Below, one piece after another: positions 1,125-58,975 of a DNA stretch of 64,000 nucleotides. Position 1 is the first letter of the stretch. Each line of letters starts with the position of its first letter. The position numbers and the translations under genes were made by a program. Origin of the DNA: Terriglobales bacterium (GTDB taxonomy: Bacteria; Acidobacteriota; Terriglobia; Terriglobales; Acidobacteriaceae); assembly GCA_035764005.1 (NCBI GenBank), contig DASTZZ010000019.1:1-64000 (forward strand), given 5' to 3'. Under the pieces are notes generated by a model. The model was not told where the DNA came from. It did no database searches and saw only the letters and a list, made by a program, of their open reading frames with translations.

Positions 1125-1811
1125 TTAGATAACGGCGGTGATGCTCGTTCCGGTAGCGGCAAAGACACCAGCCACTTCGAGTTCGGCGATTTCAAGGAAG
1201 CAGCGCAGCACGTTGGGATCGAACTGCGTTCCGCTACCTGCATTCAGACGGCGAATCGCTTCTCCGTGATCGAGCCCTTTGCGGTAGCAGCGATTTGAGA
1301 TCATCGCGTCAAATGCATCAACGATCGACACGATACGAGAGCCCAACGGGATTTCCTCTCCCTTGAGTCCTCCGGGATAGCCTGCGCCGTCGTACGACTC
1401 GTGATGATGCAGAGCGAACAGACTGGCTTCTTCCAATCCAGGAAACAGCCGCAAGATCGACCAGCTGTACTCCGGATGCTTATTCATGATGGTCCGCTCG
1501 TCGTCTGTGAGTTTACTGGGCTTTTTCAGGATCGCATCGGGCACGCCGATTTTTCCGATATCGTGAAGCAATGCTGCGACTTCGTATTGGTAGAGACTCT
1601 CTTCTTCGATTCCCAGCCTGCGGGCTACGCGTACTGCCCATTCCGCCAAGCGAGTGCTGTGGACTCCGGTGTTGAGGTCTTTCAAATCGAGCAGTTGATT
1701 CAAGGCGCAGATGACTGCCGTGCGCATGGTCACCTGCTGCTCTTCGAGCTCTTTCACCCGAAGGAGCAGCGGGGACCACGAATCAAACGCCTGATGGAGG
1801 CTCATTCCCAT
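1125..1811 (-). CDS. HD-GYP domain protein (probable c-di-GMP phosphodiesterase)
   Basis: 228 residues: an N-terminal helical segment of about 35 residues with no receiver domain, then an HD-GYP domain. The metal-binding His83-Asp84 pair (ALLHDIGKIG), the HHHE cluster near 135-138 and GYP at 144-146 with the following GGLKGEEIPLGSR are all present, so the domain looks catalytically complete. HD-GYP proteins hydrolyse cyclic di-GMP. It begins 15 bases after the stop of the upstream subtilase gene on the same strand, so it is probably the last gene of the sigma factor/CHAT/subtilase locus. Without a sensor domain its activity would have to be set by expression or by a partner. Confidence 0.85.
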   Translation of the reverse strand: MGMSLHQAFDSWSPLLLRVKELEEQQVTMRTAVICALNQLLDLKDLNTGVHSTRLAEWAVRVARRLGIEEESLYQYEVAALLHDIGKIGVPDAILKKPSKLTDDERTIMNKHPEYSWSILRLFPGLEEASLFALHHHESYDGAGYPGGLKGEEIPLGSRIVSIVDAFDAMISNRCYRKGLDHGEAIRRLNAGSGTQFDPNVLRCFLEIAELEVAGVFAATGTSITAVI

Positions 1812-27611: not shown

Positions 27612-27745
27612 TTGTCATTCCGAAGGCCAGTGTTTCGGCCTGAGGAATCCATACAAACTGCTACACCTGAAGTTCATGGGAGATCGTAGGGATTCCTCAC
27701 TCCTGCTCACGCAAACTGCGCGTGAGCCTCCGTTCGGAATGACAA
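27612..27745. repeat. 134-base palindromic element, TTGTCATTCCGAA ends
   Basis: Perfect 13-base terminal inverted repeats (27612-27624, 27733-27745). Just inside is GAGGAATCC at 27642-27650 matched by GGATTCCTC at 27690-27698, and small hairpins lie in both flanks. Non-coding. It sits between the convergent SDR and metallo-hydrolase genes and shares end sequence and layout with 52620-52754. Confidence 0.85.
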
Positions 27746-52619: not shown

Positions 52620-52754
52620 TTGTCATTCCGAACCGCCGACTTTTGGCGGTGAGGAATCCCTATCGACTTCGAAAATCTCAATCTGGCACATGCAAACCTG
52701 TTAGAAGTCCCTAGGGATTCCTCCGGCCAAAAAACCCGGCCGTTCGGAATGACA
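52620..52754. repeat. 135-base palindromic element, TTGTCATTCCGAAC ends
   Basis: Terminal inverted repeats of 13-14 bases (52620-52633, 52742-52754), inner arms GAGGAATCCC/GGGATTCCTC (52651-52660, 52714-52723) and one hairpin in each flank (ACCGCC/GGCGGT; CGGCC/GGCCG). Same layout as 27612-27745. Between cysM and the JAMM gene. Confidence 0.88.
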
Positions 52755-57237: not shown

Positions 57238-57601
57238 TCGCCGTTCCATAGTCCGAACTCTCGCGCTCGTTCTCGCAATCGCGAACGTAGCCGTATGCGT
57301 GCGCGCCGACTCCAGGCAGCATGCCCGCGATCCCTACGCCCTGCTCTTCGGCACCGTCTATGGACCGGATCAACGACCTGAGTACGGCGTCCATATCAAA
57401 ATCCGCCGTGCCGACCAGAAAAGACCAAAATGGGAATTGATGTCAGACCATCAAGGCGAATTCGCGCAGCGCGTCCCTGCAGGCAAGGCGGATTACATCA
57501 TCACCGCCGACGTAAAAACTCCCAAAGGCCAACCCAAACCCGAACTCACCATCCATGTAGATAACGACGAGCGCAAGGATTTCGTGCTGCACTTGAAATA
57601 G
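57227..57601 (+). CDS. secreted carboxypeptidase-regulatory-like domain protein
   Basis: 124 residues from GTG 57227, which overlaps the LysW-like gene by 11 bases. Signal peptide (IVRTLALVLAIANVAVCVRA), then a single beta-sandwich of the CarboxypepD_reg type (LLFGTVYGPDQRPEYGVHIKI, DHQGEFAQRVPAG, DERKDFVLHL). Such domains occur in secreted and outer-membrane proteins of Acidobacteriota. Role unknown. Confidence 0.75.
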   Translation: MITDRRSIVRTLALVLAIANVAVCVRADSRQHARDPYALLFGTVYGPDQRPEYGVHIKIRRADQKRPKWELMSDHQGEFAQRVPAGKADYIITADVKTPKGQPKPELTIHVDNDERKDFVLHLK

Positions 57602-57660
57602 GTGTCAGGGCATTTCACGCGCAGTAAATCTGTCATCCTCAAGATTGCGCTCCACCCACC

Positions 57661-58219
57661 TGTCATCCTGAAGGCCCTCTTTTGGCCGAAGGATCTCCCG
57701 CGATGTTTCATTCTTAATCGCCGCCGGTAAGGCTCCTCCAGCATGCAGAGTACAATGCTCCGCCGAATGCGAGAGCACCTCTATTCCGTGTACATCATGG
57801 CGAGCCTCTCCGGTGTGCTCTACATCGGCGTAACCAGCGACTTCAAACGCGCGTGCGCGAGCACAAAGCAGGCACATTCGAAGGCTTCTCCAAAAAATAT
57901 CGGTGCCACCGGCTCGTCTATTACGAACGCTATGACTACATCCAGGCGGCTATCGGACGTGAGAAACAACTGAAGGGCATCACTCGAAAGAAGAAGATCG
58001 CATTGATCGAATCCATGAATCCGCGGTGGCAGGATTTGAGCGAGACCTGGGAACGGGAGCATCTGGTCCCGCGGCAATCGATGAAAGAGGCAGATGAAGC
58101 CAGCGCCCGCCGAATCAAACTCTCCATCGACGGTTCTAAGCCGAAGAGCCTTGTTGACGGCAATTAAGTCCGAAAGATTACGGGAGATCCTTCGACCAAA
58201 GGAGGGCCTCAGGATGACA
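57661..58219. mobile_element. putative GIY-YIG-encoding element with 40-base terminal inverted repeats
   Basis: The left end 57661-57700 (begins TGTCATCCTGAAGGCC, ends GATCTCCCG) and the right end 58181-58219 are near-perfect inverted repeats (one gap, two mismatches in 40 bases); weaker similarity continues inward to about 57725. Between them is one gene, a frameshifted GIY-YIG nuclease. A further partial end (CTGTCATCCTC) sits at 57630. Terminal sequence and internal layout resemble the short non-coding elements at 21743, 27612 and 52620. No target-site duplication could be confirmed. Confidence 0.7.
57743..58167 (+). pseudogene. GIY-YIG nuclease gene with a frameshift
   Basis: Reading starts at 57743 with LYSVYIMASLSGVLYIGVTSDFKR, the GIY-YIG motif of the UPF0213/YhbQ group. 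Around 57848-57852 one base is missing, and the rest of the protein continues in another frame as VREHKAGTFEGFSKKYRCHRL, then LVYYERYDYIQAAIGREKQLKG and PRWQDLSETW. All conserved positions (Tyr-Ile-Gly, Arg, His, Glu-Lys) are present once frames are joined, so inactivation is recent or the deletion is a sequencing error. Inside the inverted-repeat element. Confidence 0.85.
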
Positions 58220-58239
58220 GTTCTTGAGTGTGTAGGTTC

Positions 58240-58490: not shown

Positions 58491-58625
58491 AGGGCGTTAG
58501 ATCATGCTACTCAACAAGCGATGCAAGCTTCTTGCGGACGGCGAAGTTGCAACGGAGGTGACGCGGGCAGTCCACAGACATCGTTGCAGTGAAACTCAAC
58601 CTCATAGCTCAAGTTGTTAGACGAA

Positions 58626-58883
58626 GTCCCGCCAATCGGCGGGACGCATGGAAGTAGCCCGCCATGCAGCGAAGCGGAATGGCGGGTGAAATGACAGAAC
58701 GGGATCGAGTCCGGCTTTCAGCCGGACGATTGAGAATCTCGGTTCCGAGGCGGGAATGAGATTAACCCAAAAGTCTCATTCGTCCGGCTAGAAGCCGGAC
58801 TCGGACTTGTAACCATCGTTACCCACCATTCTGCTTCGCTGCATGGTGGGCTATTTTCATTCGTCCCCCACAAAACGCGGGAC
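58626..58883. repeat. composite of nested palindromes
   Basis: Hairpin GTCCCGCC/GGCGGGAC at 58626-58645; CCCGCCATGCAGCG... at 58658-58686 inverted against CCCACCATTCTGC... at 58822-58850; hairpins GTCCGGCTTTCAGCCGGAC at 58709-58727 and GTCCGGCTAGAAGCCGGAC at 58782-58800. The pairs nest symmetrically about 58755. No gene. Lies between the two orphan antitoxin genes. Confidence 0.88.
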
Positions 58884-58975
58884 TCGGAATGTGGAGACAT
58901 ACCAGTCCACGTATGTCTACACTAACAACAAAAATGCTCTAGTCTGACTACCCGGTAAGAAAGGTGCGGAGGTCG

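Follow-up and report, generated by a model that had tools for sequence, protein, structure and literature searches.

The window, the 64,000-nucleotide stretch of DNA that was analysed, carries a unit that consists of a REP-like end, the remnant of a GIY-YIG nuclease gene and a second, inverted REP-like end. The initial annotation had described inverted ends around one GIY-YIG gene, and both ends are confirmed at 57661-57699 and 58181-58219. The features of the window are as follows.

57661..58219, plus strand, 559 bp: coding element, composed of a REP-like end, a GIY-YIG gene remnant and an inverted REP-like end
57661..57699, plus strand: left end, with a TGTC tag, the stem ATCCT/AGGAT and GA on both inner sides (hairpin 57661-57694), followed by TCTCCCG
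57743..57973, plus strand: GIY-YIG ORF, N-terminal frame (ORF translation), which leaves the frame before the domain ends
57853..58167, plus strand: GIY-YIG ORF, C-terminal frame (ORF translation and profile matches)
58181..58219, minus strand: right end, with the same plan as the left end (hairpin 58187-58219)
27613..27744, no strand assigned: short non-coding element, a head-to-head pair of TGTCATTCCGA hairpins
52621..52754, no strand assigned: short non-coding element, a head-to-head pair of TGTCATTCCGA hairpins
57631..57641, plus strand: lone TGTCATCCTCA just beyond the outer edge of the coding element, a possible REP remnant

Both ends of the unit read as TGTC, the ATCCT...AGGAT stem and a C, with GA on each inner side of the stem. 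The inverted repeat of the unit (I2) spans 23 nt at 83% complementarity, and its longer arms (57672-57738 and 58143-58209) extend over 67 nt at 79%. The ends had been said to share the plan of the short elements, which is borne out at 27613-27744 and 52621-52754. The motif TGTCATYCTGA, with at most one mismatch, occurs nine times in the window against 2.1 expected, a count that none of 100 shuffles reached; the tail motif CGAAGGATCT taken alone is not above chance in the window (8 versus 6.1 expected). As the initial annotation had also stated, the local gene is frameshifted, since its two halves (57743-57973 and 57853-58167) lie in different frames. Each ORF piece taken singly gave no match in a Pfam search; one genome-wide profile search matches the gene at 57838-57996, exactly at the 22.6-bit cut-off, and another matches it over 57838-58065. 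Because of the frameshift, the window copy would depend on another copy in order to move. A second, unrelated repeat lies downstream of the unit at 58613-58941, with arms at 58641-58687 and 58821-58867. Similar sequence occurs widely in the genome, among other places on both flanks of a Y1_Tnp gene (G000:C4:36056-36391), and the repeat thus resembles a RAYT/TIRYT-type repeat that lies beside the GIY-YIG element.

The host genome (5.1 Mb in 131 contigs) contains six GIY-YIG matches by profile search. All four genes of the window subtype are enclosed by TGTCAT inverted repeats whose inner sequence differs from pair to pair, and such repeats are absent around UvrC and one other GIY-YIG gene. TGTCATYCTGA occurs 81 times in the genome, compared with one occurrence of the reversed pattern. 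Head-to-head tag pairs of 148-184 bp, counted by eye, number 17, and short elements outnumber coding copies. Six short elements of 170-181 bp, picked by script from the loci, all match the end of the coding element over 40-87 bp at 79-92% identity, which supports the earlier hypothesis that the coding element belongs to a family with short relatives. The short elements are MITE-like, with the ends of the coding element and without its interior. In the host copy on contig C38 (L004, 597-1252), the gene is broken and partly duplicated, and three copies of a nearly identical REP are found.

The nuclease is about 100 residues long. Y11, Y21, G23, R31, E68 and N87 are invariant in 38 of 38 relatives, and we take Y11, Y21, R31, E68 and N87 to be the catalytic residues of GIY-YIG enzymes. 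PF01541 is the only Pfam match of the two intact own-genome copies (46.1 and 47.5 bits, cut-off 22.6). At an E-value of 0.01, the profile matches no solved structures other than the UPF0213 proteins 1zg2 (BH0048) and 1ywl (EF2693), with E-values of 5e-11 and 2e-7. The earlier label "UPF0213-type" is thus no more than a loose fit: it agrees with the nearest structures, but the two intact own-genome relatives match no NCBIfam model, and the REP-flanked group differs from UPF0213 proteins in a conserved C-terminal EKQIKGW..NPxWxDL part. Among phage sequences, the nuclease matched no PHROGs family and gave only three distant matches in phage records.

Hairpin ends around homologues in many phyla

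A five-protein alignment, A1, combines two own-genome copies with three relatives from the phylum; because its members were chosen partly for having ends, they were left out of the evidence. Scanning a single genome for each species yielded at least 538 confirmed relatives, from which the 80 most similar to one own-genome protein (the best 80) were selected. Record titles assign 76 of these 80 to 17 phyla, including Chloroflexota (22), Acidobacteriota (12), Pseudomonadota (8), Verrucomicrobiota (5) and Bacillota (5). An inverted-repeat score of at least 14 was obtained for 45 of 79 genes, one of the 80 being too close to a contig end, compared with 3 of 487 control positions taken from these loci. 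The initial annotation had named two findings that would speak against its proposal, namely that genes of this group mostly lack such ends, or that the ends are no more frequent near them than near other genes; both comparisons favour the proposal. Among the best 80, at least one correctly oriented GTCAT hairpin lies within 400 bp in 64 loci; 44 have a plus-strand hairpin upstream together with a minus-strand hairpin downstream, 20 have one of the two and 16 have neither. Hairpins of the form GTCAT(NNN)...(complement)AT number 238 within 400 bp of the genes (3.84 per kb) versus 107 elsewhere in the same loci (0.19 per kb, about 20 times sparser). Compared with other ORFs of at least 80 amino acids in the same loci, excluding those less than 600 bp from the gene or near contig ends, the 73 usable genes of the best 80 have hairpins on both sides within 250 bp in 47 cases, against 3 of 321 ORFs, and inward-oriented hairpins in 34 cases, against none of 321. 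The search had been proposed for Acidobacteriota; the pattern holds there and reaches far beyond that phylum.

Samples closer to the host give a similar picture. GA-like hairpins are found within 450 bp in 24 of 30 loci of the class sample and are missing in six. Exact inverted repeats of at least 15 bp are present at 13 of 20 further loci from the family of the host; the other seven have no exact inverted repeat of at least 10 bp, and two of these seven carry two same-direction hairpins (L214) or a pair on one side (L216). The detector recognizes three of the seven subtype genes in the phylum sample, and five of the seven (L050, L054, L056, L058 and L060) have inverted repeats of 15-53 bp. 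The GIY-YIG gene at L058 (about 1425-1794, minus strand) deviates slightly in subtype (REAQLKRWRREKK) and has the 20-bp inverted repeat CCCCGAGCGAAGTCGAGGGG on its two sides, which is perhaps another end type of the same system. At loci from a Nitrospina bin (L160) and a Chloroflexi bin (L147), several same-strand REPs flank the gene on both sides, unlike the simple pairs.

Are these hairpins a companion of GIY-YIG genes in general? Apart from one chance hit (L005), no GA-like hairpins were found near 24 GIY-YIG loci outside the subtype (profile score below 62 or none) from the phylum sample and the own genome, and this broader partnership was rejected. Most of these 24 genes come from lineages of the phylum other than that of the host, where such REPs may be rarer; therefore, the own-genome pair and the other-ORF control carry more weight.

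The hairpins were also considered with their stem triplets left free. The pattern GTCAT(NNN)GA..GA(NNN)AT yields 71 distinct instances in 42 of the best-80 loci. The two triplets are complementary in 65 of these 71, whereas shuffles give a mean of 11.5 and a maximum of 22; the complementary triplets fall into eight types, seven of them with three or more cases, and in 59 of the 65 the complementarity extends to the inner two base pairs. As judged from the sequences, the hairpin is under selection. Calculated DNA folding energies clearly beat shuffles for four of seven ends, namely those whose stems are long or uninterrupted (z -3.4 to -4.9). The window left end as a free DNA strand folds no better than its shuffles (z -0.74; 43 of 200 as good), nor do the two shortest GA-form ends (z about 0.2). 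Energy models are not known to reward GA/GA pairs.

A poorly resolved tree of the 80 proteins, with the end triplet assigned for 70, requires 33 triplet changes; full shuffles give a mean of 45.0 and within-phylum shuffles one of 39.3, and in neither case were any of 300 as low. One group of five, all with TGC, unites Cyanobacteriota, Chloroflexota, Bacteroidota and two records without an assigned phylum. The triplet is the same as that of the nearest neighbour in another phylum in 21 of 70 cases, compared with 10.7 in full shuffles (p=0.007). With the host phylum held, the expectation is 16.7 and the difference is not significant (p=0.125), so that host effects explain part of the link between protein and end type. 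On this tree, the end type tracks the proteins, and within the hairpins the stem triplets covary.

Relation of the ends to CGTC REPs

CGTC-tagged REPs were described by Di Nocera, De Gregorio and Rocco in 2013 (PMC3733652). In the part of that report drawn on here, the tag is often TGTC or CCTC, the stems are 8-9 bp and almost always begin with AT, the tails are mostly CCA, and the repeats are known in five phyla and include the Neisseria dRS3 and Rickettsia RPE-4/6 repeats. The same part describes them as apparently lacking a dedicated transposase and mentions no tyrosine transposase gene flanked by them (PMC3733652).

Plasmid records were searched at the protein level and the nuclease was matched in 37 of them; ten of these, some of chromosome size, were examined for the strict published form (8-bp stem, loops of 3-8; both strands counted, so that a perfect palindrome counts as 2). 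In these ten records, 34 copies lie within 500 bp of the gene and 8 lie farther away. Strict CGTC REPs are near the gene at nine of the ten named loci, including those of Rhizobium sp. CIAT894, Shinella and Aeromonas caviae, whereas four control tags gave none. The stems in Novosphingobium and Sphingobium begin with GC and AC and are exceptions to the AT-first rule; the tenth locus, that of Planktothrix, has the GA form of the end. With the strict form at nine loci and the GA form at the tenth, the ends can be identified as CGTC REPs and a looser GA/GA relative. In Neisseria gonorrhoeae, the nuclease gene is located inside a cluster of CGTCATTCCCGCG..CGGGAATC palindromes, which we take to be dRS3. 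dRS3 is counted as CGTC-1 in the cited part of the report (PMC3733652). Two plasmid contexts were recorded. On Azospirillum lipoferum 4B plasmid AZO_p3 (L176, 2998-3291), a GIY-YIG gene with CGTC REPs is located between sufB and sufC, and on Planktothrix agardhii plasmid p1 (L182, 2998-3282) the unit has an MmeI-type restriction enzyme gene on one side and the DISARM gene drmA on the other.

The ends thus resemble published CGTC REPs in the unpaired CGTC, TGTC or CCTC tag, the mostly AT-first stem, the short loop, the CCA-like tail, the head-to-head pairs and the occurrence in several phyla. They differ in two respects. Instead of one continuous stem of 8-9 bp, many loci of the wider set show a 5-bp stem, then GA/GA and another short stem; the window ends, with their TGTC tag and AT-first stem, are among them. 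In addition, the published REPs come without a dedicated transposase, as far as the cited part of the report goes (PMC3733652), whereas here a GIY-YIG gene is enclosed. The remark in the initial annotation that no such element was known to its author therefore needs qualification: the ends belong with a described REP superfamily, and it is the enzyme that its describers, in the cited part, did not find.

REP number was compared with gene presence in 151 genomes of the class by counting the pattern GTCATYCYGARC and grouping the genomes by their A1 match (strong, at most 2.6e-14; weak, at least 1.1e-13; none). The median is 63 copies in the 52 genomes with a strong match, 19 in the 14 with a weak match and 10 in the 85 without a match. 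Strong and no-match genomes differ (Mann-Whitney p=2e-16), also under within-family permutation (p=2e-4) and within the individual families f1 (p=0.02), f52 (p=0.0005) and f54 (p=0.03); in family f55, four genomes with the gene and three without it show no difference. Among the 85 genomes without a match, 21 have at least 20 copies and 8 have at least 40, suggesting that REPs can outlive the gene or that draft assemblies miss it.

Probable mobility of the unit and alternative readings

Considering the sequence evidence as a whole, we find it rather likely that this GIY-YIG nuclease is a dedicated partner of CGTC REPs. The account builds on the observed ends and unit boundaries, the dispersal of the unit, the co-occurrence of gene and REPs, the covariation in pairing, the link between end type and protein tree, and the conserved residues. 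By analogy with RAYTs, which are thought to mobilize GTAG REPs, the nuclease probably mobilizes CGTC REPs. In the mechanism that we propose, a GIY-YIG REP unit consists of two inverted CGTC-type REP hairpins around the gene of a dedicated nuclease. The nuclease would recognize the tag and hairpin ([CT]GTC-AT-stem), most likely on single-stranded or cruciform DNA that is exposed in replication, and would cut at or near the tag, allowing excision of the hairpin-bounded unit or its copying to other sites. Here the coding unit would be autonomous, and the REP pairs that carry its ends (about 150-185 bp) would be non-autonomous forms derived from it, in the way that REPINs relate to RAYTs. As the initial annotation had suggested, we infer that the ends are nicked or moved by the nuclease.

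The unit is found at unrelated places with its ends as borders. In a search with a 3-kb query around the window copy, query positions 1261-1822 (window 57660-58221, within two bases) align end to end in congeneric genomes at G245:C28, G245:C109, G241:C24 and G242:C354 with 66-70% identity. The alignments at these four loci stop at the ends of the element; a fifth, at G242:C363, is partial. Some genomes carry several copies of the coding unit. The Shinella unit with its ends recurs elsewhere in Sinorhizobium meliloti Ak57 (78% over 387 columns), and outside this shared unit the sole matches are more REP copies and a stretch like the right part of the unit. No clean empty site of the kind hoped for in the initial annotation was found at the window unit: four congeneric genomes share its left flank up to 57598-57602 and then diverge. 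Sinorhizobium M103, compared with Ak57, resembled an empty site by length and was rejected, because the flanks can be aligned across the gene and an upstream REP-bearing duplication accounts for the difference. A REP pair on S. meliloti pSymB (L293, L294 and L298) is present in HM006, 1021 and B399, absent from Rm41 and K101 and reduced to a remnant in SM11; it represents a strain-level change, with loss at least in SM11. At the sites compared, which include no clean ancestral site, neither a target-site duplication nor a target rule was found, and apart from a C at position -1 (21 of 31 tags) no clear target preference was seen.

Much of the same evidence would also be accounted for if the nuclease were a homing-like parasite that cuts REPs, with its gene being copied into REP pairs by repair and the REPs spreading by other means. 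In that case, REPs would lie on both sides of the gene because it lands in them, and a gene inserted into the middle of a REP pair would likewise share its outer halves with the short elements. Among self-spreading proteins with the GIY-YIG fold, the homing endonucleases are the best known. In Sphingobium plasmids, where the unit is covered in 7 of the 11 records with the locus, the aligned records show that MM7A, MM15 and TYG46 hold REP-gene-REP at a site where TYG64 and TYG74 hold a lone CGTC REP (imperfect in TYG74) and TYG72 and TYG65 hold neither. This case is compatible with insertion into a REP, as the homing-like reading expects, and equally with excision that leaves one end behind. 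A second junction, in a sister genus, argues against a REP as the landing site. A search of 60 genomes gave 30 loci for examination, with the unit present in G205, where it has a 31-bp perfect inverted repeat, and in G277. No hairpin lies between the flanks at any of the seven loci where these are 30-505 bp apart (G162, 30 bp; G036, 40; G286, 70; G255, 100; G249, 221; G201, 414; G291, 505). At the other 21 loci, including G247, which matches the left flank and the unit, the flanks are at least 948 bp apart or the right flank is not nearby. Furthermore, the within-family rise in REP number with the gene would require reverse causation, in which REP-rich genomes alone are able to host the gene. 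We consider the homing-like reading unlikely.

The nuclease could instead be a domesticated caretaker that the host keeps to resolve REP cruciforms, its closeness to REPs being regulatory or historical. Five of the host-family loci (L211, L212, L213, L221 and L222) look as domesticated genes would: neither inverted ends nor GA-like hairpins were detected there, and the subtype genes have no stop in the matched stretch, which makes them candidate domesticated copies. However, the presence of the unit at unrelated loci with hairpin borders, in multiple copies and in broken copies is the behaviour of a mobile element, and a caretaker role seems quite improbable.

In another reading, the REPs are moved by a RAYT/TIRYT-type tyrosine transposase and the GIY-YIG gene is cargo. 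Y1_Tnp genes are common enough in the class (49 of 61 genomes), but among 30 Y1_Tnp loci, seven of which are cut by contig ends, a hairpin closer than 450 bp was found at one, on a single side, and a hairpin anywhere in the locus at three. With hairpins on both sides at none of the 30, a RAYT was rejected as the partner of CGTC-type hairpins, and the absence of reports of a tyrosine transposase gene between CGTC REPs in the cited part of PMC3733652 points the same way. We regard cargo status as very improbable. That the ends are ordinary intergenic hairpins possible at any gene is hardly tenable and was rejected: REPs do lie mainly downstream of coding regions, according to the cited part of PMC3733652, but the window shuffles, the control positions, the two-sided comparison with ORFs of the same loci and the control tags all disagree with chance.

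Known mobile systems and implications

The proposed dedicated partnership of the nuclease with CGTC REPs has its closest counterpart in the REP/RAYT systems (REPtrons and REPINs). Both arrangements have one small gene between inverted tagged palindromes and many non-coding pairs with the same ends, and in both, REP-rich genomes without the gene exist. The RAYT is an HUH tyrosine transposase (PF01797) that acts on GTAG REPs, whereas the present enzyme is a PF01541 nuclease and the tag is TGTC, CGTC or CCTC. GIY-YIG homing endonucleases such as I-TevI and I-BmoI share the catalytic domain, and their genes spread themselves. Homing genes are located in introns or at fixed sites and are not known to have terminal inverted hairpins of their own, unlike the REP unit, which has such hairpins and sits at unrelated loci. 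IS200/IS605 elements also have hairpins at or near their ends and act through single strands (PMC6006769, in part), but the nuclease has no HUH/Y1 domain, PF01541 being the sole Pfam match of the two intact own-genome copies. The unit departs from REPtrons and IS200/IS605 by its enzyme and from homing genes by its anatomy and thus fits no mobile-element family known to us. Its mode of action may be REPtron-like. REPs and the nuclease fold are each known already, and their pairing appears to be new. No earlier link between GIY-YIG and REPs was found in the open-licence literature searched, which contains no preprints and few subscription journals, so that an unseen report is possible; a literature search with the end sequences returned no relevant record.

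CGTC REPs are one of the two described REP superfamilies, and the cited part of PMC3733652 leaves their mobilizing enzyme open. The GIY-YIG nuclease is a specific and widespread candidate for this enzyme and makes the question testable. We lean, by a narrow measure, towards a class of DNA transposable elements in many bacterial phyla that is responsible for CGTC REPs and has as its sole enzyme a GIY-YIG nuclease, about 100 residues long, acting on hairpin ends. The stem triplets and the protein tree provide natural pairs for the study of hairpin recognition by the nuclease. If the nuclease does move its ends, GIY-YIG would join the known chemistries of transposition, and many proteins annotated simply as "GIY-YIG nuclease family protein" would acquire a function.
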